From NCBI RefSeq assembly GCF_000003815.2, contig NC_049983.1:25973003-26037002 (forward strand): a stretch of 64,000 bases of DNA. Direction: 5' to 3'. The notes under the pieces are model-generated. The model saw only the letters and a list, made by a program, of their open reading frames with translations, was not told the origin of the DNA and made no database searches. Source of the stretch: Branchiostoma floridae. Its lineage: Eukaryota > Chordata > Leptocardii > Amphioxiformes > Branchiostomatidae. Shown piece by piece: positions 16,347-64,000 of this stretch; within the stretch, counting starts at the first letter, position 1; each line of letters opens with the position of its first letter. The position numbers and the translations under genes were made by a program.

Positions 16347-16862
16347 TCATGTGTTCATTACCTCCCGCAGAAACATGGTGGCGTAGCAGGAGGGGTCCAG
16401 CGCAAACCGCGTCCGCACGTGAAAGCTGTCACCGTGGGAACTGCCGTCGTCCGTGCCTCGAGTCTCCTGCGACACAGCGCCGTTCGCCGTTGAACCCTCC
16501 CCCCGCCGCGTGTCACATCTCTCGACACCTCCACCGGATGTCTGAGAGAGACTTTCACCTCTTAAGGACTTTCCCTCTGTAGCAGCAGATCTTAAGTCGT
16601 CTTGAAGATCGGCATCTCTCAGCAGCTCCCATGCCAAGTCCTTTGGCCGGGCGGTCACGTGGCGGTAGTCCCCGGGGATGTTCAGTTTCAGCGCTCGCAT
16701 CCGGAAGCTGCTCCTCTCCATCCCGTCCTCCTGCAGTGCCCGTGCGTACTCCTCGCCCACACGGTTGCTAGGATACTGGATGCTGTTGCCCAGCAACGGG
16801 AGGACGACGTCGTGGATGGAGTAGTTGCCTTGATCCACGTCTGTCTGGGTCAGAGTTTTTAC
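16347..16862 (-). CDS. PUS7L: PUS7L exon 7, C terminus
   Basis: The acceptor CCCACCAG leads in phase 0 to VKTLTQTDVDQGNYSIHDVV. LKLNIPGDYR and the C-terminal FALDPSCYATMFLREVMNT-stop follow. A low-complexity Gly/Thr/Ser insert separates the last two blocks. The TGA is at 16347-16349. Confidence 0.93.
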   Translation of the reverse strand, partial: VKTLTQTDVDQGNYSIHDVVLPLLGNSIQYPSNRVGEEYARALQEDGMERSSFRMRALKLNIPGDYRHVTARPKDLAWELLRDADLQDDLRSAATEGKSLRGESLSQTSGGGVERCDTRRGEGSTANGAVSQETRGTDDGSSHGDSFHVRTRFALDPSCYATMFLREVMNT

Positions 16863-43200: not shown

Positions 43201-43987
43201 TTAAGATAAATGCTTGATAATGCAAAGTACATCCTTGCCAAGATATTGTACACTTTGTATTCCTCGGTTGTGCCAACAATTGCTACTTAATAAACGGTTT
43301 GAAACAAGAAATTGGTGTGCTTGACATATGACATCTTCATTGATACAACAAAGTATAGTGACTTTCGTTAGATCTATCTACTACAACTAAACATACAATC
43401 AAACAAGTGTACAGAATTGAATTACCTACATACAACGTCCGTTACGTGTAAAATAGGCAACATGGCGAGTCTAACCAAGGACGCTATAGGTCTAACGTAT
43501 CAATTACACTATTGGTTCTGAGGTTCAAACGGTCTTTGATATATTTACATATATTTGTACACAGTAAGGGTTATCTCCTTCCAGAATATCGTTGAAGTTA
43601 ACTTTTGAACGCTTTATATCAGTTACACCATCTATAATCTTATTTGAAGAAAAAAAGAGCATTCCACACACTTCTACATCTACATCTAAATGGTACTGGG
43701 CGATGCCCCTCGCGGGACTTTGTGCCCAGGGGAGTGAGGTTGCCCTAGCAAACCGGTGGTGGTGAGACAAAATGGTGGAGTGAAAACACAAGTTCATTCG
43801 ACAAACAAAAACAAAAAGTGCTGTGCTGTACATGATATATTGCTAGGGCATGATTGGGTCTTACAGCTGGGCAGAGCTTCATGAAAAGGTCCCTTCTAAT
43901 AATTCTATACGTTTTATTACAGCCAAATTCTTTTCATAACTTTCAATTATCTCATAAGTTCATCAGTTTTGTACCAACTGTTCCACG
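40214..43987. other. intergenic region between gene A and PUS7L
   Basis: AT-rich and without recognised genes. It should contain the PUS7L promoter and gene A 3' sequence. A CAT trinucleotide run lies at 42043-42063. A GC-rich block at 42060-42360 with CAGGCAGGGAATTCCACTCC looks like a dispersed repeat of unknown class. Confidence 0.45.
43913..43918 (-). terminator. candidate gene A polyadenylation signal
   Basis: AATAAA on the minus strand lies 70 nt past the gene A stop. The matching position in gene B reads ATGAAA, so the signal is not conserved there. Confidence 0.5.
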
Positions 43988-45693
43988 TTATGTGGGCAGC
44001 ATTATTTCCGCCGCTTCCGGGTTCACCTCCTCCAGGACGGCGCTGAAGACATCACGTGCGTCTCCTCCTTTTGTACCCACTGTGTCCAGCAGTGCGCGTG
44101 CGCGTTCCTGGCTCGTAGACTTCGTCCTGATGATGTCACTTTCCTCTGTGCTGATGACGTCACGTGCCTGCAGGTGGTCCAGGAGCGGTTCCACGTGGCT
44201 TAGAGCCCGCACCAGCTCAGGGCGATGTCTGGTCAGTTGATCCTCCCTGTCTTGTGGCTCATCGGTCCGCTGGGTGGACATCATCGACGACATCAACAAG
44301 TCTGCTGCACGGGGCTCAACCTCCCTCAGGACTGACTGGAACACCTCAAGCGTGTCTTCTCCCTTCGTCCCCACGGTGTCCAGCAGCGCGCGTGCACGAT
44401 CCTGGGGCGTGTTGTTGGCCCTGATGACGTCACATTCCTCTATGGTGAGGATGTCACGTGCCAGCAGGTGGTCCAGGATTGGCTCCACGTGCCTCAGGGC
44501 CTGGACCAGCTCTGAGCGGTACCTGGTGAGCGGATCCTCCTCCTCTCTACACAGCAGGTCACTGACCTGTTCCGTGAACCCGAGGATGGGATGATGGACA
44601 GTACTGCTCTCTGTTGTTGCCTTGCTGATCTCCGCCTTGCTGTAGGAGTAGAATTCCTCCCTGTGTTCCTTCAGTGCACGAGCGCTGAGCACATTCTCTA
44701 CAGTACCTGTTCCTGGGCTGCACTCAAAGAGCACATCAGCGATGATGTTCTCCAGCTGCTGCAGCATCTTCCCACACTGCACCTTGTCACCCTGCGCACT
44801 CCGGACACAAATGTTGACTGCACGGCCGTCCGGAGAGAGTTTGATCAGACCTTCCACATCCCTGTCCGCACATTTGACACCATCTCTCCACAGCAGCGGG
44901 GGATTCTCCAGCTCCCTCATCAGGCGGGTCTGCACTCGGGGGAAGAACCCGGAGGAGAACATGTCGGTTGAGTCGGCACACTGGACTTGCTTCCCAAAGT
45001 AGACCACCTTTGGCTCTTGTGTGAGTTGCCACTTGTCAGACGGCATGGCTTGTGTCAGCAGCCCTGGGAAGATGAACTCTCGTCCGTTATTGGAGTGGCA
45101 GAGTTGGAACTCTTGCAGCAAGTCGATCACGAGATCCACGTCAGCAACGTCTTGGAAGACGCGCTGAATTTCTTCCCTGGTGACGTAGTCCCGACTTGTC
45201 CTGAGTCGGTGGGGAATGGGGAAGTTGTCCGGGGCCATGATTGGGCCGAAGACATCTGTGCCGAGCCAGTTGGGCTTCAGGACAAGGATAGGGTCAGAGG
45301 TGGCCGGGGTGATGAACAGAACCTGGGTTAGAAACAGACCACAACTGTACAGTCATACCGTTACTACACGGCATTGCCGTGCTAATATTGTTTAAATGGT
45401 TGGATACAGATTTTATACATTTATACAGGGAAGCTGTAGTTTCTCAAAATTGAGTTTAAAGAGGTCTGACTACTCTTCAGTAGATTAAGTAAGTATCGTA
45501 CCTCTCCTAAGTGGTGCAAGAACCTTGTGGATTTGTCTAAGAACTCCTCAGACAGATGCCTGTCAATTGCTTTCACTTCACTCACGTAGTCAGGCCACAT
45601 CATAACGGGGCATCTAGGGCTGATTTTACTCTTACACCACTGAGGCAGGCACTCCATGATCTTCGCGCACAGCTGGGGCATGTCGCGTTGATT
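43988..45693 (-). CDS. gene A COR domain and tandem CARDs
   Basis: Exon 45502-45693 (MPQLCAKIMECLPQWC) and the first half of 43988-45322 (ILVLKPNWLGTDVFGPIMAP, FIFPGLLTQAMPSDKW) form the COR domain. CARD1 (about 44288-44530) and CARD2 (about 44000-44236) each have the xxxDRARALLDTVGTKG-type core and a VExLLDHLxARDI-like helix. The two CARDs are close to each other, so they arose by internal duplication. Confidence 0.88.
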
Positions 45694-48600
45694 CTGTGGA
45701 ATTGGGATCAAAGTGAAACACGTTGGATTGTGTCATGGAATCATATATGGCCGATGCTAAAGTTATATTGCAGACAGTGCTATCAGCTATCTTACTTTCT
45801 GCAAAAGAACAAATCTTAATTAAGTAATCGTATCTAGGATTCTCATGTAGAAGATCTGCACGATAACATCGTATGCAGAAGAAGCCCAACTATTTGATTG
45901 GCATTCACATGTAGCGTGTGTGGCAACATAAGCGTGCACAACTCACTTGCAGCAAGGACTCTCTCATCCTGACCAGAAGACTCTTGAGTTTGTCCATCTC
46001 AGGTGTCCGAGTCTGCCTACAGTCCATTAGGATCACTTCATCCGCGATACGGAGGTGGTCTCTGAAATCTTCTTTCATCGCCTGAACTACACGTCCAGCT
46101 CGGCGTTGCCCTGGTTTTTGTACGGATGATGTTTTTATAGTGAATGATTAAAAAAAAATCAAATATCATAAAGGGGGCGAATCATGATAGCTAAAGGATG
46201 CATGATACAACAGACACACCACACCCCATCGTCAACGTCATCACATACCATATCTTAATCTTAGTTTGGTTAGGATCGTCACCTGTGGTAAGCTCAACTT
46301 GGTCCGCATGGCTGGCCACCAAGATGACGTCAGGCTTCCGGTTCGGGTTGCAGGACTTGATGAAACACAACCACCAGTGGACCTGTGGTGACAAGCATTT
46401 TAAAAGCTATAATAGAATTTTTCATTAAAAATATTTTTGTTATGTATGATCTCTTGCTTAAGCCTCTAAAGAAAAGACAGTTGACAAGTATCCTAGCTAC
46501 AGATGATCCCAGCCATCAATGTGCTGCACTCAGTAACAAAATTATGTTGTAATTGACAGATTACCACTTAACAAGTTGGTGGGTAAGATGTTTGATAACG
46601 ACGGATAAATAAACAGACACAACGTAGGTAGGGTTTGTTATGTACATCCATAAAGCCATCAGATACAGGTCAATAGATGATAATGAAAGCCATTTTTGAT
46701 TACCTGTCTTTCTTGGGTCTCACTGTCGTCCATGATGTTGTACAGCACAATGAAGACGGTGTTCTCTGCATCCATGAACATACTGTGGGTCACCGCGTAC
46801 TCCGACTGCCCAGCAAAGTCCCACACGCTGACCTCCCCCACCCCTGGAATATGGAACGTTCCAATTTCCACCCCTGGGGTCGGGTTGTGAGGTTCTTCCA
46901 CTGACCTTCGGGAGAGTCTTTGGATCAGTGCAGACAGCAGGCCCTGATTTGTATAAAAAGTGTCGTTAATTTTAGTCGTTATAACTTTCCAACAACTTTA
47001 CATCTAGAGTTACACGGCTCCGTACCTTCGTCAAACGATTTCAGCCTTTACGACTAATGTTTTATGAGTGTTTCTCATTAATTGTACAAAATATGGTCTT
47101 CATGTGAATGTTAATATACTTCAGATGAATTAGAGTTTTTTTTCTGACGTACCTTCGTTAGACTTGTTTTCAGTGTGGACTTCCCAGTTTCCTCCTTCCC
47201 TCCTATGAACACCTTAAACCTGTTGACCTTCACTCCGCCAGACTTCTGCATCAACTCGTGGTAGGACTTCTCTTGCTTCAGCTGTTTGTCAAGATTCTGA
47301 GACAACAAATATTTGTTTATGAAAAACATGGCTTTTTGGTACCTCTACAAATAATACTGTCAATTTTATGATAACTACAGGTTGAATTGTGGTCAAGAAA
47401 AATAGTTGATTGACAATCGTTAGCATTTAGTGTGTTATTTACCTTTAAGAAACGCCAGGTCTCCTGACCATATGCCCGATCTAGCGGAGTCTTCCCACCC
47501 TATATTAATAATAATAATAATAATAATAATGGTTTATTTGACAGAAGCATTTCGCAGCCTTTCGGCTGAATTGTACACTCCTTTCACATGGAAGTCGAAG
47601 ACATTGAGTAAAAAACGGACTTTTAGAAGTACAATCAATTTACACTGGTAAACCACTATACCTGGAATTTACAGCCTTAAGATTATTTAACGTTTACAAA
47701 GTATTAATTACTATTGACATGATTTACAGCAATAAGATAACCACAGCCTTCTAAATGCTTCCTAATCTTGAACACTCCAACTGGACACATGGGAGATCTC
47801 TGTTACCGAGCAGAACCTTATTTCATGGTTAGCAAACACAACTCAAAACAAAGCCAAAGAGAAAACAGTAGCCAGAAACTTCTTCTAGAGCTGAAACTAA
47901 AATTCCGCCTTGTTTTCTAATGTAAATGTAAGCCAGATTGGATACAAATTCTGTATCCTCTTCATGTAGCCTGAATGTGTCCATGCAAAAACAAGTATAC
48001 AATGCCAATTATAAAATAAACACATTTTTCCATCCACGTCCGCTCAGCACGAATCAGCGCGAAACAAGTATGTATGACCTTATTTCTGGCTGTAACTTCC
48101 GCTCCGGAGCGGATAAGGAGTTCAGAAGTCCCGAAGTCGCCTTTGTGGGAAGCCCAATGCATGGGCGTGTTCTGGTCCTGTACAGGAAAAGGGTCAGGAT
48201 CAGAACTGGTGGGATAGTTGTGGGTAATAGCATGGGATGCCGCTTTGAAGACAGGTGAAGTTGTACCTAACTTACTACCGTTACTTTAGTGATTTCAATC
48301 CTCCATTTGTCACGATATTTATCTTAAATGGTTTATGTACGTGTTAGCTGCAGAACCAAAACGAAGCAGGAGTCAAGCAAGCGACAATCTTATCCGTTTT
48401 CATGCTTGTGGAACGTGCCATGGCTCAACTATAACTTGGCTGCTGATATTCTAAGTTAGGCTTAAAGGGACTGGTTAGGTGACTGGCCATCCGTCATCAT
48501 CATAAATTTTATACCCACACAGTTGTCACCTAAAACAAGGTCTATTACCTGATCTCTTGCTGTGACGTCAGCACCAAACCGAATGAGAAGCTCACAAGTC

Positions 48601-50935
48601 CCGGTGTGGCCCTCGGCAGCAGCCTCGTGCAAGGGCGTGGACTGGCGCTGTACAGGAAGGAGGTCAGAGTCAGTAGTGGTGGGTTCATCGCAGGTCATGA
48701 AGACAGCAATGATTCATCAGAAATTTGGGCAATGAACTTGGATGAGGGACAAGGTCATCAGCAAGACATTTTGTACAACAGAGTACGAAAACAAAATAGC
48801 GAGTAGTGTAAATCTTTTATTACAAACAGCATAACTGTGTATTATCCAAGATTACCTAACCAGGATCACATGGCCGACATGCATGTGAAATAAAATGTGA
48901 ATTACCCGATCTCTCGCCATCACGTCCGCACCGGAACGAATCAGAAGCTCGCAGGTCCCGGTGTGGCCCCGGTAAGCAGCCTCATGCAGGGGAGTGGACT
49001 GGACCTGTGCAGGGAGAAAGTTGGGGTCACTAGTCTTTGTTCGTCTTTGCTCATTGATATATTACGAGTTTGGTCTGGAATAAAAGATAAAAATGAACGA
49101 AACAGAAAAACCATTGGTTGATCATCCTACTGAAGCCCAGCTAAGGCCATCAAATAAATTTAAATTCCCCACTGATATTTGTGGGCTGCATTGACTGGTT
49201 GAACAAAGTAAAATGCAGAATCCGAATAGAAATTGAGTTCAGTTAACCTTAGTTGCTGTTATTTACTACAATTCATGCAGACTTTAATTTTCATGTGTTA
49301 CCTCATCACCTACGGCGTTCACGTCAGCACCATACCGAATCAGAAGCTCACATGTTCCGGCGTGTCCCCCAGTAGCAGCCCGGTGCAGGGTTGTGGGCTG
49401 GTCCTGCACAATGAAGAAAGTACATATAGACAATAGCTTTGTTGCAATCACTTCACTTTCATCTTCCCAAGGCTTCCCAATCAATATAATCAAGGTATAA
49501 CTTCATAACGCTTTTGCTGACTGAAATATCAGTGAACACAAACAGATAGGCAAACACAAAATAAGTGTGCTTTACCTGATGTTTCGCCATCACCTCGGCA
49601 CCAGAGCGAATCAGAAGCTCACACGTCCCGGTGTGGCCCCGGGCAGCAGCCAGATGCAAGGGTGTGGACTGTTCCTGTAGAAAGGGGTCGGAGACTTGAA
49701 AATGTTGAGAAAATCTATCCAGACAGCAGTGTTTCAAAATATAATTTTGTGCTAGTTCTACTTGAAATTTATCTTACTGCAGTTATGATAGTATATAATC
49801 TATCTTCCTGGATGCCTGGTGAATCAAGGACTTTCATGTGAAAGAAACTTATTTCTTTTGCATGTAGTGTATCATAATACCTGCTCTAGAACATTCCAGG
49901 ATTACTTGTACTTCTGAAGGAGAGTTGTATGTCAGGAGGGAATGTTTAGGGGAACTAAAAATGACAGATGGAGCGAGCGTTGTGACAGGGACACCGTGAC
50001 GTGAGGAACACTGTTTGGTTATAGGTCACTTACATAGTCCTTAGCCTCGAGATCTACGCCATGTCGGATCAGTAACTCCACCACCTCAGTCTGTCCGTGC
50101 TTGCTGGCCACATGCAGGGATGTCAGGTCTTCCTAGATAGGGACGCAATCGTGCAATAGTCGGTTACAACTTGTCTACACAGTGCGGTATCATCGAACTG
50201 ACTATGAAAAACGGATGTATCGACGGGGTGGGGGAAATTATCAAGTACTCATCATCATGTGGGTGCCAACCCAACCTACGACCGAACACCACTTCCCTCG
50301 TAAATGGAATTGCGACTTCCTACCGGTGTGGGCCCAGGGAAAAATCCGCCCAAGCATCACTGACCATTTGTTTCTCAATAATTTGACCAACGATTTCCTA
50401 CTACACGGTCAACTTATTAATCATGGAAATAAGTTCTGATCATTCATGCAAATGAAGTCCTCATTCGCATGGGCATCCGCCCGGAGTGAACGTTGTGAGA
50501 AAGATACCGTGAGCGCTTGTTACTTACCCTGTCTCTCACCTCCAGGTCAGCGCCATTCTGTATCAGGAGCTCTGCCACCTTCGTGTGCCCGTGTCTACTG
50601 GCAACATGTAGGGATGTCTGGTCACGCTGGATAGAGCAATAATTGGGGGCATTCAAGAACGTTAGCAATATGTAACATGGCAAGGTGGCAAAGTGATCTT
50701 GCGGATAGGGTTTTTGATCTATATTTTAGAATGATTCCGAATTGCTAACATTCATCAATTAGTGTTAACTTTATTATGAGTACCCCCGTAACTGCTGTTG
50801 AATCAAAGATCCTCACCCATCCCCAGTCTCTCTTTACTTTGACATCCACCCCAGCCTCCAGCCCCCTCAGCACAGTCTGCACGTCACCCTCCTGCACGGC
50901 CGTGAAGAACGAGGCCAGGTCCATCTCATCACAAC
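43988..50935 (-). CDS. gene A: ankyrin-Roc-COR-CARD-CARD protein (complete)
   Basis: Exons are 50817-50935 (ATG 50924), 50528-50626, 50034-50132, 49576-49674, 49302-49403, 48906-49004, 48549-48647, 48079-48177, 47443-47499, 47153-47296, 46704-46943, 46283-46382, 45947-46110, 45502-45693 and 43988-45322. The total is 3036 nt, 1011 residues plus TAA, with every junction in frame. Domain order: seven ankyrin repeats (about 37-268), Roc GTPase (about 300-480), COR (about 500-800), CARD1 (about 832-912) and CARD2 (about 930-1008). Roc-COR proteins (LRRK2, DAPK1, MFHAS1) are GTP-dependent dimerising switches, and DAPK1 also pairs ankyrin repeats with Roc-COR and a death domain. CARDs recruit caspases or adaptors. 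A cytosolic innate-immune or apoptosis role is inferred from this layout. I know no named orthologue. Confidence 0.9.
45947..47499 (-). CDS. gene A Roc GTPase exons
   Basis: A 19-codon cap exon (47443-47499) leads into the GTPase. The Walker A motif GGKEETGKST is in 47153-47296 (Gly at about residue 320). The switch II motif WDFAGQSEY is in 46704-46943, with MFMDAENTVFIVLYN after it. The base-recognition motif SHAD is in 46283-46382, followed by exon 45947-46110. All key GTPase motifs are intact, so nucleotide binding is likely. Confidence 0.9.
47503..47530 (+). repeat. (AAT)n microsatellite
   Basis: About nine AAT units lie in the intron just upstream of the gene A cap exon. Confidence 0.9.
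48079..50626 (-). CDS. gene A ankyrin array, seven one-repeat exons
   Basis: Six exons are exactly 99 nt and one (49302-49403) is 102 nt, all phase 0-0, each encoding one repeat. The first two are of the LHVASRHGHTKVAELLIQNG type. The other five follow a TPLHxAAxxGHTGTCELLIR pattern. Symmetric exons allow repeats to be gained or lost without a frameshift. The array probably binds a ligand or holds the protein inactive, as ankyrin repeats do elsewhere. Confidence 0.9.
50817..50935 (-). CDS. gene A first coding exon
   Basis: Encodes MDLASFFTAVQEGDVQTVLR, then GLEAGVDVKVKRDWGW, an ankyrin-like capping helix pair. The acceptor at 50936 is in phase 1 like the matching exon of gene B (62373-62500). 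This suggests an upstream exon once existed or exists as 5' UTR. I chose ATG 50924 because no upstream coding exon was found. Confidence 0.8.
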
Positions 50936-51217
50936 CTGCTGGTATTTCACAACAGCGTAGTTACTCATCACCAGGCTCCTTTAAATCTGGTTGTCGAAAA
51001 TACTATTAATTTTACCAAAGTGATGAACATTTCACATATCACAAACCTAGTCTTACACAATTGCAACCTCAGTAGGTAAAGTTGTACTTAACTTTAGTGG
51101 CAATTTGATTACCTAATTTAGCCAATTCTTATTTCTCATAAACTAAGTTTTCTCGTGAAGAGTACTATATGACGTCTTACACACAGCTATTAGCAGAGTT
51201 CCGGCGGGAAAACAGCC

Positions 51218-51226
51218 CTTTATATA
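51218..51226 (-). promoter_or_regulatory. candidate TATA box for gene A
   Basis: The minus strand reads TATATAAAG, a near-perfect TATA element, about 290 nt upstream of the gene A first coding exon. No other promoter element was identified. Confidence 0.35.
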
Positions 51227-53157
51227 AGCGTGAAGAGGATTTGATTTCCAACAAGAGGAGTTTCTACGTATACGACGCAGATTTAACTCTATTGGAGAAT
51301 GGGAAAATCATTAACGTAGATACCGCGATCATTGAAGGCTGGCTGCGATACCCTCAGCAGTGACCAAAGTGCGATGTCCATTTTTGTCCGGCGTGTTGTT
51401 TGCAGTGTCCACAAGCTACCCAAGCGAATAGTTTCCGGGTTAAGGGTAACTGACCTTAACGTACAATTAACCGTTTGAAGGTCAAAAAAACACTTCGGGG
51501 GTGCAAAAGAGTGTAAAGAGTTCTCTCTTTAAATGCATATTATTTTCTTTTCAGAATTTGTACAAGTAATTACAATTAAGTCCTTCAAGCAAGGAAGTTA
51601 AAAGGAAGTTATTTCTTCGCACGTCTTTAGACACCTAAACGTCCACTTCACCTCCATACGTCTACACAACACCGGGACTCAGCTTCAATATAAACACAGG
51701 AAGCGTAGCTTTAAACTCTTTTATAAAGTTCACAGAGAAAAATTACCGGGATAACCCGATATTTCTTTGCCAAACTTTGCAAAATAACCTTGGCCTTTTT
51801 TCTTTTTGATACCTTTCTGATACAGTTGATGAGTTGTAGAATGCTCATACTTACGTTTTCAGTGAACCAAACAACTGTTACTGAGATCCCCGGTGTTGGT
51901 CGTGTCCGGCAACTTGGATTAAATCACTGGCAAAGCCAACATTTAAACGTGGTGCATCATCAGGGAATGTTGCAAACAGACTTTGACACGTCATATGATT
52001 TGTGTTTGTCGCGCCACACACAACATTACGTCATCTAGTTCAGGGGTAGAAAACCTTTGGAACCATCACGAGATTTGGTGCCGAGACCTCAAACGACCTT
52101 CAACTGCAATAGTTTTACGCTTCGTGCTTAAAATACTTTGAAAGTATGAATTACCTAATTTTTCCACGCGTGGAAACTGCATTTCAGTAGAAAATATTCT
52201 ATATGAGCAGACAATTGGACTACCATGCAGGTGGCTACCTATAGTTTTACAATTGAACGCGTTACGATAATGCTACACAATGCTGTGTATACATGCAAAC
52301 GTGGCTATATATGCATATATGTATGCAAATTACAAACACTCTAAATTCTTTTCACCAACGTATGATTTTTATTCCTACATATATCAACACATGGGGCATA
52401 TAGCCATATAGCTACAAACAGGTGCAGCCGCCACCCAACTTTGACCCCTTATCACTGGTTTGTGTTGGCTGTCCGCGCGGGACAGGCGTCATCTAGTCTG
52501 ACACTGGAACAATGGGACTCACTCAGGGATTTTAATTGTCTGACCTCGGAGCAATAACTTGGACCGCCGAGCGTCTGATAACTTTGCGTTAAAAGTTACA
52601 AAGAGTCACCATGCGTTTTTCAGAGAGCCTACAACTAGCATTCATCGGCTGTGTATGATGTAAAGTATGTGGATTATTGGTTTGTTGACTACCAGAACGC
52701 TATTACCTAGGGAAAGCTGAGCATTTTTATGTGCATATGCATGTGATATTATGTTTGGCCGATTTCCGTGAAAATTAAAAAACATAATACTTACGAAAAC
52801 TTTATAGAAATCAATGAAATTGTTATTAATACATGGGGCAAATAATTACAACCATCTGCAGCAGGCTGGAACTTTAGAACCCTGATCACCAGAGTAGCGT
52901 CTCAGGGGATATACGTAATCTAGTTTGGCGGTAATTTTAAAGCAACTTTGGAACCATTGGAACCAGCATTAGGTAGATGGCTTAACTTCGGGTGAATTCA
53001 AATTTAATATAATTGACTTAAGTTTGCTCCCCTTGCGTATTGTCCACTAGTGTGTATGGGGGAGAGAAAAGAAAAAAAATATGAAGAAACAGGTTCACAA
53101 ATGTATGAAAATTTTATCAATGTATGGCATTAATAAAAAACAACAAAATGCGCTTAA
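51227..53157. other. intergenic region between genes A and B
   Basis: No recognised gene. No sequence resembling the coiled-coil exon of gene B is present here, so gene A lacks that part. Confidence 0.5.
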
Positions 53158-53679
53158 TTGGGGCATTCCACTCCAGAAGGGGGTGGAGTTTTCCAATAGA
53201 TAATGTGTCAATGAATACATAATCAGCCGAATTTTGTGGAATTCACATTGCGCGATGTGTATTTTGTAAAACAATATGACACCCACTAAACTCACGCAGA
53301 CCCTACCCATGCATTCCCTATACGCATAGACACTTTGTTTATCGTGCGTATTTTCGGAATAAATGAGGAGCACACCGAGAAGGCAAATTGGTCACAAGAT
53401 AGCAAAGAACACATGACAAGACTAGATTTCTTAGCGATCCTGAAATTAGTTTTGTAACCTTACCTAAAGGTTTTGCATTGTATTTAACCATAGGATTAAT
53501 TCAATTAGAGGGTACTTGGGGAGTTTAGTAGAAGACTGGATGCTTTTGAGCAACTGGGTACTTTATCGTATAATGTGAAGTAGTATGCATTTATTACTTT
53601 CTAAAATTAATATCTATCGGAAAATAACGATGATGATGATGATGGAAAATAACACTCCCGTGTGGAGTGGAATGCTCCT
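53158..53679. mobile_element. 522-bp MITE with TTAA target
   Basis: The ends GGGGCATTCCACTCC and GGAGTGGAATGCTCC are inverted repeats flanked by TTAA (53154-53157, 53680-53683). TTAA targeting fits piggyBac or Kolobok groups. It overlaps part of an unsupported minus-strand frame. Confidence 0.7.
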
Positions 53680-54533
53680 TTAAGTGTCGACTTTGATCCC
53701 TTACCATCAGATTTGCCTTCGTCGTCAGCGCGAAAGTCACATTAACTAGCCTGGTGGTAAAATAAGAATCTCTGGGACGAGTCTTCATCATGAGAGTTGA
53801 GACAATGAAAATGTGAAAAGATAATCGATGTATGAACTCTGGTACTAAAATGATGACGACCACGAACAGCAACGCACACAAACTTGAATTCGCAAACCTC
53901 GTTGTAACATTTACATTTACCCATGTTACATCTTTTGATATCGGCTGGTGGTTAGGCGTGATAAGTACATTCCTGGTCACACTTCTCCTCACTACTTCAA
54001 TTTTCCAGATTATTTATGAATGGGTGACTGCAGTAGGCAGCATTCGTAGTATATCTGCGTAACGTCACATTGGTAGTGGAGATACCATGTTAAAATTTAT
54101 TTCAGAAAATTCGCTTATATGCATACTTTGGCAGCCTAGTTGTCCTTTGGACAAAGTGATCAATGCAAAAATGTGTTTACAAGAATTTAAGCCATAATGA
54201 CTTGCTTGTCGCGTATCATGTACCCCAATTCTTATTTTGATTTTGAAAATATTTCATTGGGGATATAAAATGTGTCTTTTCTATTTTTCCACACCGTTTA
54301 TGGTTGTTCTTGTATTCGTACGTGGTAGGCATATGCATTTACTACACAATGCGACACTGTTAGAAATCTAAATCCAAGAAAAACGGTCTTTCCTGTTCTT
54401 TACCTTCAATCTTATTTGGGGAGAAGCAAACGAACATTCCACACATTTTCAGAACAAAGTCCTTTTTATACGTTTCATCACAGCCAAACTTTCAATCATT
54501 CAAGTTCATCAGTTTTGTACCAGCTGTTCCACG

Positions 54534-56337
54534 TTACGTGGACAGCATCATTTCCGCCGCTTCCGGGTTCACCTCTTCCAGGACGGCGCTGAAGACATCA
54601 CGTGCGTCTCCTCCTTTTGTACCCACGGTGTCCAGCAGTGCGCGTGCGCGTTCCTGGCTCGTAGACCTCGTCCTGATGATGTCACTTTCCTCTGTGCTGA
54701 TGACGTCACGTGCCTGCAGGTGGTCCAGGAGCGGTTCCACATGGCTTAGAGACCGCACCAGCTCAGGGCGATGTCTGGTCAGCTGGTCCTCTATGCCCTG
54801 TGGCTCATCGGTCCGCTGGGTGGACATCATCGACGACATCAACAAGTCTGCTGCTCGGGGCTCAACCTCCCTCAGGACTGACTGGAACACCTGAAGTGCG
54901 TCTTCCCCCTTCGTCCCCACCGTGTCCAGCAGCGCGCGTGCGCGATCCTGGGGCGTGCCGTTGGCCCTGATGACGTCACATTCCTCTATGGTGAGGATGC
55001 CACATGTCTGCAGGTGGTCCAGGATTGGCTCCACGTGCCTCAGGGTCTGGACCAGCTCTGGGCGATTCCTGGTGAGCAGATCCTCTTCCTCTCTGCACAG
55101 CAGGTCACTGACCTGTTCCGTGAACCCGAGGGTGGGATGGGGGGTTGTACCGCCCTCTGCTGCTGCCTTGCTGATCTCCTCTTTTCCATAGGAGTAGAAT
55201 TCCTCCCTATGTTCCTTCAGTGCACGAGCGGTGAGCACATTCTCTACTGTTCCTGTTCCTGGGCTGCAGTCATAGAGCACATCAGCGATGATGATCTCCA
55301 GCTGCTGCAGCATCTTGCCACACTGCACCTTGTCACCCTGCGCACTTCGGACACAGATGTTGACTGCACGACTGTCCGGAGAGAGTTTGATCAGACCTTC
55401 CACATTCATGTCCGCACACTTGGCACCATCTCTCCACAGCAGCGGGTGATTCTCCAGCTCCCTCATCAGGCGGGTCTGCACTCGGGGGAAGAACCCGGAG
55501 GAGAACATGTCGGTTGAGTCGGCACACTGGACTTGCTTCCCAAAGTAGACCACCTTCGGCTCTTGTGTGAGTTGCCACTTGTCAGACGGCATGGTTTGTG
55601 TCAGCAGCCCTGGGAAGATAAACTCCAATCCATTATAGGTGTGGCAGAGCTGGAACTCTTGCAGCAGGGTGATTAGGAGATCTATGTCAGCAACGTCTTG
55701 GAAGACGCGCTGGATCTCCGCCCTGGTGACGTAGCCTTCGCTTGTTCTCGCCAGGCGGGGAATAGGGAAGTTGACTGGTGCCATCATTGGACCGATGACG
55801 TCTGTGCAGAACCAATTAGGCTTCAGAACAATGATGGGATCAGAAGAAGTCGGACAGTTGAAGATTATCTGCAAAAGAAAGTTGGCACAATGTACGGGCG
55901 TTTACTTTACGGCTCCTCAACATTACAATTAAACACAAAATAAAATCCATTCAATGTTTTCGAAAAGTAGGTCGGAGCAAACTGGACAAGTAAATGATAT
56001 ATCGCAAAATGATTTGAGCAGTTAAATACTAGTCTTGTTGGACATAAAACCCTTAGCTTTTTGGGCATACAAAGCTTCTTCAGTTTCAAGACACCAGGAT
56101 CAGCATCTTATCATTCAGTAGCTTCACACAAAGATGGCAGCCTACCTCCCCCTGATGGTCCAAAAGTATTGTAAACTTCCGCAGGAATTCCTCATCCACA
56201 AGTGGGTCGATCTCTTTGACTGCTTCCACGTAGCCTGGCCACCTCAGTACAGGGCACTTCGGGCTGCACTTTTTCTTACACCAGCTGGGTAGCTGCTTGA
56301 TAATTTCGGCGCACAGTTTGGGCATCTGTCGCTGATG
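54534..56337 (-). CDS. gene B COR domain and tandem CARDs
   Basis: Exon 56146-56337 (MPKLCAEIIKQLPSWC) and the terminal exon 54534-55868 match gene A. The terminal exon has the same length (1335 nt). CARD1 lies at about 54834-55076 and CARD2 at about 54546-54782. From the COR segment MPSDKWQLTQEPKVVYFGKQ onward the two proteins are almost the same. Confidence 0.88.
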
Positions 56338-59300
56338 CTGTGTAAATTGTACGTAGAAAGACACCATTTGTAAATCCTTAGCTGTCAAAAATGCCCTGCA
56401 TCAGATCTGTCTCTGGTGCTTTACAAGTTGTAAATGGCAATCCGTGGTTATTGGTCAATAATTCAAAATTTAGCAAATGAATTGGCATTCATTACCCAGA
56501 TCTGCTGTTATCAACACGCACTCTTACCTCTGACATGGCCATCTTCATCTTCGCCAACAGTTTTTTGAGCCGGTCCATCTCAGGTGTACGGGTCTCTCTG
56601 CAGTTCATCAAGAAGACTTCGTCTGAGATGCGGAGGTGATCTTTGAACTCTAACGTCATCAGTTGCAGAAGATGAGCAGCTTGGCGCAGTCCTGAACGTT
56701 ATCATTAGCACGAAACATACAATGAGGATATTAATGTAGTTAATTTGCACATTATATCTACATGAGTTGTATTATTAGTTTCATTTCTGCCATGGCAAGA
56801 CCATTGTATCATTTCCCCATTTACCGTTGGTTATTGTGCAGCCTGATCCATTTGTAAAGAACTATTTACTCTGAAAAATAAATTGTACAGAGACTCATAT
56901 CGTGTTTACCTCTGTCTCGTGACACTTTGTCTGCATGGCTGGCCACTAAGATGACGTCAGGCTGCCGGTTCGGGTTGCAGGACTTGATGAAACACAGCCA
57001 CCAGTGGACCTGGGGGATGCATTTGTACCGAGGCCCATGTAAAAGTAACAGAATATGAAAAATTGAATTAACGTTGATAAAAAAAAATTACCTGTAGTTT
57101 TTGGGTCTCACTGTCGTCCATGATGTTGTACAGCACGATGAAGACGGTGTTCTCTGCATCCATGAACATGCTGTGGGTCACCGCATACTCCGCCTGCCCA
57201 GCGAAGTCCCACAGGCTGACCTCCCCCACCCCTGGAATATGGAACGTCCCAACATCCACCCCTGGGGTGGGGTGGTGAGGCTCCTCCTGTGATGACGGCT
57301 TACTCAGTCCTTGGAGTAGTGCAGCCACGAGGCCCTGTTGGACAATATTTATTCGATTTTGAAATCCTTGCTGTTGAGTATTTTAGGCTTCTTTTATGAC
57401 ATGCTTTGTGTCTAAGGAATGTTGTATTTTGATATTTGTGTATATCTTTAAGGTATCTCGGTTGGCTAAATTGGCATTTTGACCTTCCACTGTTTTCTTA
57501 TTAATGAATTAAGAAAGAATGGAGCCATAACGAATGTTGATAGATGGGGATTAGAGAATTCTAAATCTGATTTTTTTGGGGCCGAATTGATGACGTCATC
57601 ATTTTTATTACCTCTGATATTATTTTTTTCTATGACAAAATACAGCACTTTGGTACATACCACTGTAATGAAACTTCGTTTTTCGTTGCATAATGATGGA
57701 AGCTACAAACGTAGTGTTGCGCAAATTGATATCTACTAATGATCTGTAGTAATTAGAAAATATTTGTTTTCATCTAATTAAAAAAATTTAATTCTTAATA
57801 ACTACAGATCGTTAGTAGATATCATTCTTTCTTAATTCATTAATAAGAAAACAGTGGAAGGTCAAAATGCCAATTTAGCCAACCGAGAAACCTTAAAAAA
57901 CGACATTGTTATGATTTCAGAATCAAGCGAGGCTTTTACTCACCCTTTGAAGACTTTCCTTAAACGTAGACTTCCCAGTTTCCGCCATCCCAAACACGAA
58001 CACCTTACACCTGTTGACTTTTACTCCGCCGGACTTCTGCAGCAACTCATGGTACGTCTTCTCTTGCATCGCGTCCTCGATTCCAGAAGGGATAGGAATG
58101 TTAATTTTTTTTGTCAATGTTTGAGAGTTGCAGGCAATCAGGCAATTAGTCGTCAGTATGATTGTTACTGTATTTATTAAGATTTCCTTTAGCTAAAGGC
58201 TAATTTTGCAAGGATCAGAATACGAAACACGCAATACACATACAGACATACAGGATTAAAGGTTACATAGAAATTATAAACTAAAAAAACACGTAAAAAC
58301 GATTAACCTGACAAAAAATTGTTTGTTTTAGGATTTGGTAGTCTGAAACTGCATGATTGTTAGGCAAGGAAAACATTGCCCACCTTCAGGATACGCTTAA
58401 TCCGCATCTTGAATATTCCAGCTTGGTCCAATGGAGTCTTTCCATCCTGTACAGAGACATCAGAGACAGTGTAGATTTAAAAAAAAATGATGTTACCTAT
58501 AGTTGTATGCTTCGATTCATTCATAATATCTCTGCCTACGCCCATGTTAAGATACTGTGTAATCGGTTTTGAGCTAGAGGCCACAGTGGTTTTTAGCTAG
58601 AGGAACAATTGGATGGTAGAAGGAAACAATTGATTTGGACGCCTTCCAGCTGTGTTTAGAGTTTAGAATATCCTATATGCATTGATATGAGGGCAATTGT
58701 TAAATTAAGCAATTATATGTATTAATGACGTCATAGATGATCTTTGTGTGGGATCGCGTGGCGCAGCGGCAGCATTTGTGCTTCGTGACCGAGAGGTTGC
58801 GGGTTCGAATCCGTCTGCGTGTCACCGATCTTGAGCCCTTGGGAAAGGCACTTTATACGGCTTTCCTCACTATACTCAGGTGAAAATGAGTACCTAGCTT
58901 CGGCTAGGGCCGTCCCTCGGATAGGACGTTAAATGGAGGTCCCGTGTATGGGGAGAGTCACACCCCATGAACGTTAAAGAACCCCCACACGTGCGATGGT
59001 GCGGTGGGAGATGGAGCAGAACCCTTCTGTCTGGAGTTGGTGATTCACTTCAAATCACCCGGATGGAGGCCTGGCGAACCTCCATTACGTATTGATCAGC
59101 CACACGGTGATTTACATCAGCGAAAGGGTATGCCATCCCGCCGCGCCGTGTGTAAGCATGTGCGAACATGCACAGGGCTAGCCCTTGGTAATAGCCCCTG
59201 GCTAGTTGGGCAACCCTGGTTGTTTGCTAACAGCTGAACAAATAAATGAATAAATAAATGAAATAAATAGATGACATGTATCAATGTCCTATTGTGTAAT

Positions 59301-62300
59301 TGGCAAAATTTCTTCGTGCTCGTCGACGCGTCATTTCTTTGTTGAGTTATCGTAAACAGTTGTTTAAATATATGCTGCATTATGAAATGTTAAGAAACTG
59401 TCCCAAACACATGCTGCTCAGCTTTGTATCAAGGGTTGGTAAGGGACACGGCACGGGGTATTCCAGGTAATAAGATACGCCAAAAAGCAAACTACTTAAG
59501 CAACTGGATATGGTTTTGGAAACATCCGTTGTTTTTCGTCAGTGATACTGGAAAAATCTTGTTGGAGAGGGTTTTTATATCCTAGCTGTGAATTGATTGT
59601 GATTGAAAAAATGATAGGTGGAACTTGAACAGACACCAAATATGCCAAAGGGGAAGTGATCATCTCTGCAAAAATGGCAAAACAGATTAAAAATAAATGG
59701 TGAGAAATTTCATAGTTATGACATGTGTAAGTTTACCAATGATGAACATCACCATGCATGAATCTGTGAAATCTCTAAATATTTCATAGAGGTATGAGGT
59801 CACTAAAATCTAGTAGTGACATAAGATTGAATACCTGTAGTCAATGTAATGATATTATCATAACCTTACATCATTGCAATCTGTTTGGTTTATTTTAATT
59901 GCATTACCTTATCCCTTGCCATCACGTCTGCCCCATGGCGAATAAGAAGCTCAACAGTCCCGGGGTGGCCCTGAATAGCAGCCAAATGCAGGGGTGTGGC
60001 CAGGTGCTGTGCAGGAAGGTCAGGGTCAGCAGTGGCGGATTCAACACGGACAGCAGTCATAACATGGATAATAAGCAGTTTTATATGGTCCTGAAATGTC
60101 TAGAGTTTATAGCGTGATCAATTCACGCGTGACTTTGTACTATTAACTTAGATTTGTTTCATATAATATACTGGACATTTACGTGTTTGTCAGGATCTCT
60201 GTAAGCAGCAGCCATCAGCATTGGCTTCCTTATCACACCATCGCACTTTTAGATACAAATATATGTTGAATGCATGTATTTGATATAATATGATATCAGT
60301 ATCAAGTTACATCTATGTAATCTGCAATGTCTATTTGAAAAGAGTGTGTATCACCTTATCCGTGGCAGTCACGACTGCTCCATGGCGAATCAAAAGCTCA
60401 CAAGTCCTGGCATGGCCCCCGTAAGCAGCTCGATGTAGGGGTGTTGACAGGTACTGTACAGGGAGAAAGGGTAGCGTCACTGAGTAGCAATTGGTCCTTT
60501 TAGGCAATTGATTTGAAAAAGCGACAAACATGGATTACAGACAAACATTAACCACTGGACAACCTAGCTATCATATAGCGTATTTTTCATGTATGTCCTG
60601 GAACTCCAAGAAGCGCATGCATTATTGGAAGGGCTAACCTGATCAGTCGTACCCTGGCCTAGGGGCACGTACGGGCTAAACTAACCGGTTAAGAAAATCT
60701 AAACTCCCAATAGAACTTTGTTCAGTTAACATTATTAATTGTGATTGTATACTACCGCAAGTTCGCAACATACATGTGTATTCATGTCATATATCACCTT
60801 AAGGTATGGGCCTTGGTCTATTTTGAGTAAATAGACTTTCCTTTCGAGTAAAGTGGTAAGCTTAGAAATTGTAAATGCGATAAGATATTGATTGTGCATA
60901 GTTGTAAACTCAAGCGACTAGCTTTCTTGTAAATAGTCCCGAGGGACATAGAACTTACAACTGTCTCAAAACGGCGCGCGCTTAGCTACGGCTGTCAGTC
61001 AGAAAATTTGAAGTTATCTTTATACATTTTTTGTATATTGACTAATCGAAATCAAGCATCTGGGGACCATCGTTACAAAAATTCCGGTTATAGCTTTTGA
61101 GATTTATGGAGGGAGGACCTGTTCGGGTTGGATATTTACTAAAATGTCAAACCGGGTCCGTTCTATTCTGAAATCAAAATTATGACAAGACTTCGCGCGG
61201 ATTTAGGGGTCATTTGTATTACGCTTTCGAAATCAGTGACAAGTCGTCTACTTGGCACCGTAACTAGAAGGTTTAGTGTTTCTTACGCAATGAATTTCCT
61301 GTTGGTTTAACGTTTGAAATCTACAACACTTGATTTCGGGTCGTTTTTGGGATAGGAAAACGACATACGATCGGTTCAAAAACCTATATGAGGAGGAAAG
61401 GAGGCTGAAATTTTGTGAAGCTGTAATTATGAAGATGCGCGGCTATTTGCCACAGCGGCAAGCTTTCCTGTAAAGAGGTGTCGACGCCCAGGGTCATGGA
61501 CTAATTTCTTTCGCGGAAGGAAAAGGCAACTGCATGCATAGAACTCTCGGTAAGGCGTATAGGAGTGCATTGCAAGATTGTTCTGTTATAGGAGTTGAAT
61601 TTATGTATGAAAGAAGCACAACGTCAACATCAGCGTGAACTATTTTTTTTTCCTTTTTAGATATGGATATTTTCACGATAATTTATAACGAAAACGTCTT
61701 ATAAGGTCCGAAGCAAAGTATATTGCATTTGTCATTTTCTTGCACTGCGCCCTACTGGTGAAGTACCATGTGGCAAAGGGAAAAGAAAAGGTGCTATTCA
61801 TGTTGTGCCAAATGAGTTAAACCCACATATGTATGGACGATTTTTCATGTGTTTCAAAGAGTAGACAACGGGTCTCATGAATGAAAATTATGGACAAACT
61901 GCAATGCCTTTAACAAATACCTTCTCCAGAACATTGTTATAGTTGTCTCAATGGGATCTATACGTCTGAAGGGAATATTAGTGAGAGAGTGTCGTGACAG
62001 AAATTGTCCAGGTGCTCTACTAACCTCGTCCCTCGCCTCGACTACAGAGCCATGTTTGATCAGGAGCTCTGCCACCGAATGCTGTCCGTACCTGCTGGCA
62101 ACATGCAGGGATGTCTGACTGACCTGGATAGAGAAACGGGGGAATAACCGGTTAAAATATGACTGTACAGAGAAAGGTATCATCGTCACAGTGCAATCAT
62201 CATTATCATCATGCCAGGGTATCGTTACCTTTGTGAAAGAAACCCTATCTCGACTATGTTGACCGACTCCAATTTTTCCACAGATGATGATTTCTGAAGT

Positions 62301-64000
62301 CATGCATTTAAAAGGACACATAAACTGTGACTACAATCATGTAATGCCGCAACGCAACATCGGTCTCCTTACCTTTTCTCCCCAATCTCGCTTGACCATG
62401 AGCATGACGTCCATCCCAGCCTCCAGCCCTTTCCTCACAGTCTGCACATCACCTTCCTCTACAGCCTTGTAGAACGTGTCCACGGCCATTACCACAGAAT
62501 CTGTAACACAGAAAGGACAAATATGATGATTGATTAAAATTTTACGAACTCTCGAAGAAAATGATCATAATGCATGCACATAGTAAAATTGTGAGCAAGT
62601 TTCATTTACTTTTTGAAACCCATACTTGTGTGTTGATTCCTACGCACCTGCCTGGTTTACGTTGCGAATTGCTTGGCCCTCGAGCTCTAGTCCAGTCTTT
62701 GTTTCCCCCTTCTCTGGGCCTTCCTTCTTCTCACAGTCACCTTCCTCACCTTTACCCTCCACTGGTTGTTTGGCAGACAGCAGTTCCTCTATTTGAGCAG
62801 CCATGCTCTTGTTAACCTCCTGCAGCTGCTGGATTTCTGATTCATTTGTCTGGAGGATTTTCTGAGCTCCCTTCTTCTCCTCTTCCAGTCTGGTTATGCC
62901 CTTTCTTAGACTTTGCACCATGGCTTCTGTCTGTTGTCTGGCAGTGTTTATCTGTTCTTCCATTCTATTGATTATCTCTTCCTTGTTCCTGATGGTCTCT
63001 TGTAGCCGACGGATTTCCATCCTCTGTTCTGACAGAAATTTCTGTGACGTCTCATCCTTCTCTCTTAGTCCTTGTATCTCTTCACGAAGTCTGGGAATAT
63101 CTGTCAGCTGACTGATAAGTTTTGTGTTCTCAGCTGTCAGTTCGCCAATTTCAACATCGCTGCTCTTTTTGGTCTCCAGCATCTGCTTGATTTCTTGATT
63201 CTGTTTTTGGAGGGTTCTCTGAGACATCTTGTCCTTTTCTTCTAGGGTGCTAATCGTCTTTTGCAGACTGCTACACATGACCTCTGCCTCGTCCTTGGCT
63301 TTCTGCATCTCTTCTCGCATTGTTGTCTGTTCCAAGACGATTTTCTCTGCTTTCTCCATTTCCTGTGTCAGCGTTGTCACTGCCTTCTTCAGGGTTTTAC
63401 TTTCCTGTCTTTCTGTCTGTAGCTCTCCCCGTGTAACCTGAAGCCGACCTTCCATCTGTTGCTGTGACTTCTTTCTACCTGTCTGCAGGACTGTTTGTAC
63501 TTCTCTGGCTGTAAAGTTCATTGCTGTGACGTCATCAGTGCTTTCTGTGCAAGACTGGTTTCCTCCACGGACAATGGCCAGGTCAAGACCTCTTACGCAG
63601 AAGTGGTCCACTCGTCTACTGGGAGCTGGCAGGGCCAGAATGTTGTCAATGGAAGTGGTACGGTCCAGTCCTGTTTATAACAGGAATAAAGTGAATACTA
63701 TATTACCAATGTAGCAAATTGAATCATCAAGTCATAAATGTCAACTGAAAGCAGGTAAGTTAGTTATGAGAGCAACTATATGTTGTAGTCTCACCTCGTC
63801 CTAGTCTGTTTCGAACTCGCACATAGTCTTCGTGCTTCACCTGAAGTCTCACGATCAACTGTGCACCCTTGACCTTTCTCTGCAGTTCGTCCGAGATGAG
63901 GATGTGTGAGAGTTGCTGAGACAGGCTGCCCTCCCCCACCCTGTAGTGGTTGTGGTAGAATCTGTCCACATCAGTCTGGCGGAGAAATGTCAGGAGGAAG
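54534..64000 (-). CDS. gene B: coiled coil-ankyrin-Roc-COR-CARD-CARD protein (5' end outside window)
   Basis: Exons are 63795-64000 (runs off the edge), 62648-63670, 62373-62500, 62025-62123, 60355-60453, 59908-60006, 58384-58446, 57944-58075, 57092-57334, 56910-57009, 56528-56691, 56146-56337 and 54534-55868. All junctions keep phase, giving 1293 residues in the window plus TAA. Domain order: an unrecognised N-terminal part, a long coiled coil, three ankyrin repeats, Roc (Walker A GMAETGKST, switch DFAGQAEY, SHAD), COR and two CARDs. It is the tandem paralogue of gene A with fewer ankyrin exons. The coiled-coil part could be a separate upstream gene, but the phase-1 junctions 63670/63795 and 62500/62648 fit one transcript. 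A signalling GTPase with a CARD output is the inferred role. Confidence 0.85.
56528..58446 (-). CDS. gene B Roc GTPase exons
   Basis: Cap exon 58384-58446 (DGKTPLDQAG) leads into 57944-58075 with Walker A GMAETGKST, then 57092-57334 with LWDFAGQAEYAVTHSMFMDA, 56910-57009 with SHADKV, and 56528-56691. The acceptor of 57944-58075 (ATCGAG) is the weakest junction in the model. Confidence 0.85.
57452..57892. mobile_element. 441-bp foldback MITE with TTAA target in gene B intron
   Basis: Inverted arms of about 70 bp (57452-57521 and 57823-57892; outer end GGTATCTCGGTTGGC) are flanked by TTAA (57448-57451, 57893-57896). A second inner inverted pair (57728-57751 with 57800-57823) extends the hairpin. 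It sits between two Roc exons of gene B. Confidence 0.8.
58750..59270 (+). mobile_element. full-length tRNA-derived SINE
   Basis: The head has an A box TGGCGCAGCGGCAG (58759-58772) and a perfect B box GGTTCGAATCC (58802-58812). The body follows (GGGAAAGGCACTTTATACGG, then GTTAAAGAACCCCCACAC), and the tail is ATAAATGA-type simple repeats (about 59238-59270). It is not a functional tRNA, since the 3' side does not pair with the 5' end. It lies in a gene B intron. Confidence 0.8.
59908..62500 (-). CDS. gene B linker and three ankyrin exons
   Basis: Exon 62373-62500 (AVDTFYKAVEEGDVQTVRKG) matches the gene A first exon. Ankyrin exons 62025-62123, 60355-60453 and 59908-60006 are each 99 nt, phase 0-0. 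The first is of the LHVASRYGQHSVAELLIKHG type; the others are of the GTCELLIR type. Confidence 0.87.
60454..62024. other. gene B intron between ankyrin exons 1 and 2
   Basis: A 1.6-kb intron with no recognised exon. A missing set of ankyrin exons relative to gene A would be expected about here, but none is seen, not even as a pseudo-exon. Confidence 0.5.
62648..63670 (-). CDS. gene B coiled-coil exon
   Basis: This single 1023-nt exon is phase 1-1. It starts GLDRTTSIDNILALPAPSRR and then encodes about 250 residues of heptad-rich, Glu/Lys/Gln-rich coiled coil. The coiled coil ends in an acidic Lys/Glu/Gly segment and NVNQA. A long parallel coiled coil would promote dimerisation, which Roc-COR proteins also undergo. 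The plus strand shows several shadow frames. Confidence 0.8.
63795..64000 (-). CDS. gene B N-terminal exon, unrecognised domain (partial)
   Basis: Open to the window edge. Reads FLLTFLRQTDVDRFYHNHYR, then SQQLSHILISDELQRKVKGA and QLIVRLQVKHEDYVRVRNRL. It looks like a compact helical, possibly death-fold-like domain, but I do not recognise the family. The donor CGAG|GTGAGA is in phase 1. Confidence 0.6.

Follow-up and report, generated by a model that had tools for sequence, protein, structure and literature searches.

What kind of protein joins ankyrin repeats to a Roc-COR GTPase module and two CARDs in a single chain, and what might such a protein do? The question is raised by two neighbouring genes, A and B, in a stretch of the Branchiostoma floridae genome of 64,000 nucleotides (NC_049983.1, positions 25,973,003-26,037,002 of the forward strand), referred to here as the window, whose numbering is used for all coordinates below. 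The reading we favour, with a probability of roughly 0.55, is that both genes belong to an animal ROCO family that has undergone expansion, that gene A encodes a cytosolic ankyrin-Roc-COR-CARD-CARD protein, that gene B encodes the same core, most likely extended at the N-terminus by three parts of another repeated family (a Death domain, a TRADD-N-like domain and a coiled coil), and that both work in a receptor-like manner as proposed further on.

Rebuilding the exons of gene A yielded 15 exons on the minus strand (50924..43988) that encode 1011 residues, with the sole stop codon at the end. Exon 1 (50817..50924) provides the start ATG and an N-terminal ankyrin cap. It is followed by seven ankyrin repeats recognised by Pfam in exons 2-8 (48079..50626; six of 99 nucleotides and one of 102, all in phase 0) and by a C-terminal ankyrin half-repeat in exon 9 (47443..47499). 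Pfam, an alignment to LRRK2 and the motifs themselves place the Roc GTPase in exons 10-12 (46283..47296), and the exon rebuild, Pfam and a PDB search place the end of Roc, a linker and the start of COR in exons 13-14 (45502..46110). The last exon, 15 (43988..45322), carries the rest of COR-A, COR-B, CARD1 (~44288-44533), CARD2 (~44003-44236) and the stop codon, as judged from Pfam and the predicted fold. Past the stop lies an AATAAA (43913..43918), which is a consensus match only. As an AG acceptor stands 11 nucleotides before the gene A ATG, and is present also in gene B and in a relative elsewhere in the genome (locus L033), an exon further upstream is possible.

The core of gene B was rebuilt as 11 exons on the same strand (62489..54534; 880 residues), and the gene is at least this long and probably runs past the window edge. 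Its ankyrin cap exon (62373..62500, from the exon rebuild and splice signals) contains an internal ATG at 62489 and is followed by three ankyrin exons of 99 nucleotides in phase 0 (62025-62123, 60355-60453 and 59908-60006, by Pfam and exon rebuild), a C-terminal half-repeat (58384..58446), three Roc exons (57944-58075, 57092-57334 and 56910-57009), two exons with the end of Roc and the start of COR (56528-56691 and 56146-56337, by exon rebuild and Pfam) and a last exon (54534..55868) in which Pfam and motifs locate the end of COR-A, COR-B, CARD1 (~54834-55082), CARD2 (~54549-54782) and the stop. Here, too, an AATAAA past the stop (54096-54101) is a consensus match only.

Both genes therefore read ankyrin repeats-Roc-COR-CARD-CARD in frame, and the exon rebuild bears out what an earlier note, made from the letters of this DNA, had claimed for the pair and for the 1011 residues of gene A. 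All 24 introns across the two genes are GT-AG, a border type that the exon search itself required, and intron phases are identical in seven A/B exon pairs from the last ankyrin half-repeat onwards. Full ankyrin repeats occur one per phase-0 exon (7 in A, 3 in B), with half-repeats at both ends of the array. That the four modules are joined by splicing holds for the in-frame joins further upstream only; COR-B, CARD1 and CARD2 lie within a single 444-codon exon (A 43991-45322; B 54537-55868), so that the COR-CARD fusion needs no splicing and is read straight from the DNA.

The identity of the CARDs in both genes is certain. The Pfam CARD profile (cut-off 23.9 bits) scores 125.4 bits over two stretches in A and 132.1 over two in B, and within the last ~180 residues of gene A, where the earlier note had placed the CARD end, the two copies pass singly with 71.1 and 66.3 bits. 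In sequence they match the CARDs of cIAP1, NOD1, APAF1, caspase-9 and NLRC4. A fold predicted for the last exon from two sequences shows both CARDs as helical bundles with a predicted local distance difference test score (pLDDT) per block mostly of 70-88, and leaves most of COR unresolved (pLDDT largely <50). Foldseek placed the predicted CARDs with those of APAF1, NOD1 and CARD8 (template modelling score on the target ~0.7-0.85); CARD structures made up nearly all of the best 50 of 118 rows, none of them at E <= 0.001. Within one gene CARD1 and CARD2 share 52 of 85 residues, whereas between A and B 75 of 86 residues are identical in CARD1 and 81 of 85 in CARD2. Because the CARDs are more alike between the genes than within one, their doubling appears to be older than the A/B split at the last exon.

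The ankyrin and Roc assignments rest on the same kind of evidence: Pfam gives Ank 182 bits in A (seven stretches) and 80.6 in B (three), and Roc 44.8 and 36.3 bits, respectively, against a cut-off of 27. The GTPase motifs, reported earlier as intact, are present in both genes, with P-loops GKEETGKS (A) and GMAETGKS (B) and with DFAG and SHAD in each; those of gene A align to their LRRK2 counterparts. In gene B the Pfam Roc stretch starts past the P-loop, which is assigned there by motif. Outside comparisons were confined to the literature and the PDB, and a PDB search with the Roc-COR part of gene A aligned Roc and the beginning of COR with LRRK2, and COR with bacterial Roco. The COR-A and COR-B segments of both proteins stand in the expected place and order after Roc.

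Comparison of the two loci indicates that selection has acted on these reading frames. The introns of A and B have diverged while their exons are alike: each of the 21 DNA blocks common to both loci overlaps gene A exons and is 59-100% exonic. Over 738 aligned codons from exon 9 onwards, the nonsynonymous (dN) and synonymous (dS) divergences are 0.126 and 0.403; the ratio of 0.31 points to purifying selection on at least one copy, and both copies are open.

We searched the animal's own genome (513,431,437 bases on 431 contigs; all counts that follow are lower bounds) and found at least 84 matches to COR-A, at least 95 to the last exon of gene A and at least 58 to its Roc exon. Loci were paired by place and strand, taking a COR match within 10 kb downstream of Roc and a CARD in the same match or at <=3.5 kb. 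On this basis 55 of the 58 Roc exons have a COR match downstream, and 24 of these 55 Roc-COR loci possess a CARD, 14 in the same match and 10 more within 3.5 kb. Both CARDs in one match were seen in 5 of the 55 (A, B and three on contig C6), and in the other 31 no CARD was found with the gene A last exon as query. The doubled CARD output, put forward earlier as the output of this design, is thus a feature of a minority. No further copy of the gene was found inside the window.

C-terminal ends and ankyrin counts vary across the family. In nine relatives without a CARD (L010-L018; last exon 66-71% identical to that of gene A), ankyrin and Roc exons lie upstream, and the tail that closes the COR exon is a different one, acidic or repetitive; GQLQLE-like repeat units or NTIINPG-like stretches were noted among these tails. 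Two other twin-CARD exons (L033 and L034, at or before the exon) and a one-CARD exon (L035, before it) are accompanied by ankyrin, Roc and COR exons arranged as in A and B. The domain order, for which the earlier note knew of no named gene, is consequently not confined to this pair. Another ROCO type accounts for the five loci inspected among COR-A loci L001-L008, whose long frames contain no CARD by eye. Two clusters were observed besides: 14 COR-A matches at G000:C3, ~31.9-33.3 Mb, with open frames of ~490-715 residues, perhaps of a different ROCO type, and seven CARD matches without COR in the last-exon query at G000:C13, ~20.640-20.666 Mb, forming a group of CARD1-related CARD genes.

Nor are A and B, described earlier as tandem genes, simple tandem copies of each other. 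Copies at C5:23.6-24.0 Mb match the Roc exon of gene A with up to 88% identity, compared to 82% for B, whereas the last exon of gene A is nearest to B (86%) and then to C6:749598 (83%). The nearest partner also switches along the last exon. In codons 0-55 A is the odd one, with proportions of synonymous differences (pS) of 0.55 for A-B, 0.44 for A-C6 and 0.15 for B-C6; in codons 110-165 the values are 0.026, 0.16 and 0.19; in codons 275-330 A and B (0.096) are again closer to each other than to C6; and elsewhere up to codon 330, near the end of L033, all three are about equidistant. With exons grouped after inspection of the data, A and B differ synonymously at 0.68 of sites in one group (exons 13 and 14 with the opening 55 codons of exon 15) and at 0.16 of sites in the other (exons 11 and 12 with the remainder of exon 15), an unevenness that by itself suggested a simple tandem duplication followed by A-B gene conversion. 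The switching of partners along the last exon and the closeness of the Roc exon to the C5 copies make that account too simple. The pattern looks like segment exchange among copies, its detail being uncertain with three sequences and saturated sites.

Gene B appears to extend beyond its core. Upstream of the ankyrin cap lies a coiled-coil exon (62648..63670, minus strand, in phase 1 on either side and with CAG|GTGCGT as donor), recognised by its splice signals and by hydrophobic residues at a period of 3.48, whose frame stayed open in none of 2000 mononucleotide shuffles. Before it come an exon with a conserved 135-residue domain (63795..64235, minus strand; 63795..64000 in the window, the rest in the adjoining genome stretch, L009, numbered here as a continuation of the window) and, beyond the window edge in L009, a Death-domain exon in the same orientation (64660-64917; Pfam Death 55.7 bits, cut-off 22.6). 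The ankyrin cap exon has a pyrimidine-rich acceptor at 62500 in phase 1, matching the coiled-coil donor. From splice signals and phase we consider it rather probable that the coiled coil (62648) is spliced to the ankyrin cap (62500). The resulting long model has 15 exons and 1460 residues without an internal stop, including a 7-nucleotide start exon that is its weakest part; translation may alternatively begin within the Death-domain exon, at the ATG of residue 12.

The 135-residue domain (GSV...FYHNHYRVGEGSLSQQL...EDY) is TRADD-N-like by eye and context only, a presumptive likeness to which the profiles lend no support. Pfam includes TRADD-N models, and the gene B domain matched none of its families (0 in all); among four members of the domain family only DUF7018 appeared, at E 0.096 in one of the four, and the PDB contained no meaningful match. 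The 68 residues inside the window are predicted with low confidence as one long helix. In the genome this exon has 22 matches, nine of which, gene B included, reach >= 60% identity. Of the eight relatives of the module, three were fetched. In two (L030 and L031) the reading frame of the module passes directly into repeats of an NHL beta-propeller (78.8 and 107.5 bits), and in the third (L032, G000:C18:16354700-16358600) a GT4-conflict open reading frame (214.4 bits) follows ~330 bp further on, on the same strand. Partners of the TRADD-N type thus accompany all three, NHL in two and GT4-conflict beside one. In these loci the module stands, or may stand, ahead of other domains as their leading part, in keeping with a similar place at the front of gene B. 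One relative (C18:16195820, 65% identity) has, ~10 kb upstream and on its own strand, a COR-A match that belongs to another ROCO copy (G000:C18:16185013-16195820), an order opposite to that of gene B.

Branchiostoma is among the animals with TRADD-N conflict proteins, and sections of one account name beta-propellers (WD40) and GT4 as TRADD-N partners in cephalochordates (PMC8195603). The gene B module resembles them in that some of its relatives carry a beta-propeller and one adjoins GT4-conflict. It differs in that the described proteins have a DED in front, a WD40 propeller, and GT4 before TRADD-N, whereas here we find Death, an NHL propeller, and GT4 after the module. Sections 10 and 11 of that account do not mention a fusion of Roc-COR to TRADD-N.

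Several observations weigh against the favoured reading. Both COR profiles stay below their cut-offs in both genes: COR-A (cut-off 35.3 bits) scores 29.2 in A and 23.0 in B, and COR-B (27 bits) scores 24.4 and 24.6. The four-domain assignment made earlier for gene A is accordingly upheld by Pfam for Ank, Roc and CARD, with COR-A and COR-B as matches of lower score in the expected position. Neither gene is among the 84 COR-A matches in the genome (E <= 0.001), and eight of the nine relatives L010-L018 also fall short of the COR-A cut-off (27.7-34.7 bits), the one at C12:16193895 passing with 35.6 bits. The number of CARDs differs among relatives. Finally, among the nine close members of the 135-residue family gene B alone adjoins the COR-CARD family; no front module was found upstream of L033, L034 or L035 as far as these were fetched (L034 being partly masked), nor any of its parts upstream of gene A within the window. 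With no ROCO relative carrying the front module among the loci examined, the gene B joint is without a second example.

These last points bear on the strongest competing explanation, in which gene B starts at the internal ATG at 62489 and the Death, 135-residue and coiled-coil exons belong to a separate, shortened neighbour gene ending at a TAG just after 62648. The front module does occur elsewhere without the COR-CARD ROCO family, the coiled-coil frame meets that TAG within 10 nucleotides of the putative donor, a matching ATG exists in L033 and gene A, and front-module parts are missing in the window upstream of A and in the 2.6 kb upstream in L033. Against two separate genes stand the donor CAG|GTGCGT, the pyrimidine-rich acceptor and phase 1 on both sides of 62648/62500; the intron between them has only 147 nucleotides and contains neither AATAAA nor ATTAAA, and in L030 and L031 the module continues into a further domain in one frame. 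We regard two genes as a serious possibility, though the lesser one.

In order to rationalise how such proteins might work, we considered what is known of their parts. Passages of PMC4104024 describe ROCO proteins as probable functional dimers in which Roc is a nucleotide-dependent switch. In the working that we propose for A and B, the ankyrin repeats would bind a ligand or hold the protein shut, Roc-COR would dimerise and switch with GTP, and the paired CARDs, four per dimer, could nucleate an assembly of CARDs and so draw in a CARD caspase, kinase or adaptor. CARDs form homotypic assemblies, and RIG-I and MDA5 reportedly provide an earlier example of CARDs in pairs. The Death domain and coiled coil proposed for gene B may supply a second end for docking and multimerising, to engage Death-domain adaptors and to reach higher order. 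GTP switching, CARD assembly, sensing, a role in immunity or cell death and the gene B joint are all inferred.

DAPK1, with the order kinase-ankyrin-Roc-COR-Death, offers a different precedent. As in A and B, its Roc-COR is preceded by ankyrin repeats and its C-terminus is formed by a death-fold domain, and the parallel drawn in the earlier note holds as a layout. Unlike DAPK1, both genes end in CARD-CARD, not in a Death domain, which the long gene B places N-terminally. The proteins might by analogy be constitutive regulators of cell death or of the cytoskeleton rather than sensors, which the shared order and the purifying selection would suit. But no kinase was detected in the A or B models (Pfam, E <= 0.01) or in the N-terminal pieces of gene B, and a family that numbers dozens of copies, forms clusters, changes its ends and mixes its segments looks more like one for defence than like a single-copy regulator. 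A constitutive function of this kind appears rather unlikely. Still less probable is that the CARDs act as decoys or caps restraining caspases or adaptors: the weak CARD matches include CARD-only regulators, ICEBERG for one, but a pair of CARDs attached to a GTPase that dimerises would be better suited to assembly than to capping. That A and B are pseudogenes or products of misassembly, which the large repeated family and internal stops in 5 of the 95 last-exon matches might bring to mind, is very improbable given frames open over 1011 and 880 codons, a dN/dS of 0.31 and introns that diverged while exons remained alike.

How do the two genes compare to proteins already described? ROCO proteins with CARD or death domains, in many copies, have been reported from Trichoplax in passages of PMC4104024 and PMC11378527, so that A and B belong to a kind of protein already known. 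Common to both is Roc-COR with a CARD in one protein and many copies in one invertebrate. The passages and Fig. 1 legend of PMC4104024 name TPR, LRR, AAA, MBT, SH3, TIR and Ras-like partners and mention neither ankyrin nor the order Roc-COR-CARD-CARD. Brown algal LRR-ROCO proteins, called candidate immune receptors in parts of PMC11378527, resemble A and B in that their ROCO family has grown and each repeat has an exon to itself, and differ in having LRR instead of ankyrin and a simple LRR-Roc-COR layout. The inflammasome adaptor Caiap, present from fish to marsupials, likewise combines CARD and ankyrin repeats, and its CARD promotes self-oligomerisation, but in the layout given in PMC5662874 the CARD is N-terminal, the ankyrin repeats number 16 and there is no Roc-COR. 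TIR proteins of Aplysia carry ROCO domains according to a passage of PMC9334734, and for amphioxus portions of PMC2575513 describe new combinations of NACHT, TIR, DD, DED and CARD; in a whole-word search of the latter text Roc, COR and ankyrin were all absent. Among the open PMC papers listed in our literature searches, none names amphioxus ankyrin-Roc-COR-CARD genes in its title or the opening of its abstract.

The layout is also that of NLRs (CARD-NACHT-LRR) in that a repeat domain, a nucleotide switch and a CARD output are combined. Unlike NLRs, A and B use Roc-COR in place of NACHT, for which Pfam gave no match in either gene (E <= 0.01), ankyrin in place of LRR, and C-terminal CARDs. The idea of the earlier note, an NLR-like sensor in which Roc-COR replaces NACHT, would fit the expansion, the single repeat per exon, the variable C-termini and the segment mosaicism. 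Extending it, we tentatively put forward a class of ROCO-based, NLR-like intracellular receptors, a proposal with somewhat less than even prospects, in which a constant switch would be combined with ankyrin repeats gained or lost as single exons and with exchangeable ends (0-2 CARDs; in gene B Death-TRADD-N-like-coiled-coil), diversified by segment exchange. Gene B would then unite Death and CARD outputs on one GTPase. If so, the Roc-COR switch of LRRK2 and DAPK1, instead of the NACHT of NLRs, would be seen to serve an animal as the basis of many candidate danger sensors. Roc-COR wired to CARDs would also constitute a natural system in which GTP-gated dimerisation could be read out as CARD assembly, and a real long gene B, where two repeated death-fold families meet, would be a case of how new immune architectures may arise.

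Rfam reported no RNA families in 40000-64000 at the gathering threshold and ARAGORN no tRNA genes. Within gene B introns we noticed a 75-nucleotide inverted repeat (57447-57521 / 57823-57897; 99% complementary, 301 nucleotides between the arms) that looks like a small terminal-inverted-repeat element, and at ~58742-59260 a tRNA-like start (GTGGCGCAGCGGCAG...GGTTCGAATCC) that by eye suggests a short interspersed nuclear element, on which ARAGORN and Rfam report nothing. On the minus strand, a TruD stretch (16347-16931, 34.2 bits) and a PUS7L N-terminal stretch with R3H (38933-40237; 74.5 and 45.3 bits) are perhaps parts of one long PUS7L gene next to gene A. An exon encoding a Reprolysin (ADAM-type) propeptide lies at 6879-7451, also on the minus strand (71.9 bits).

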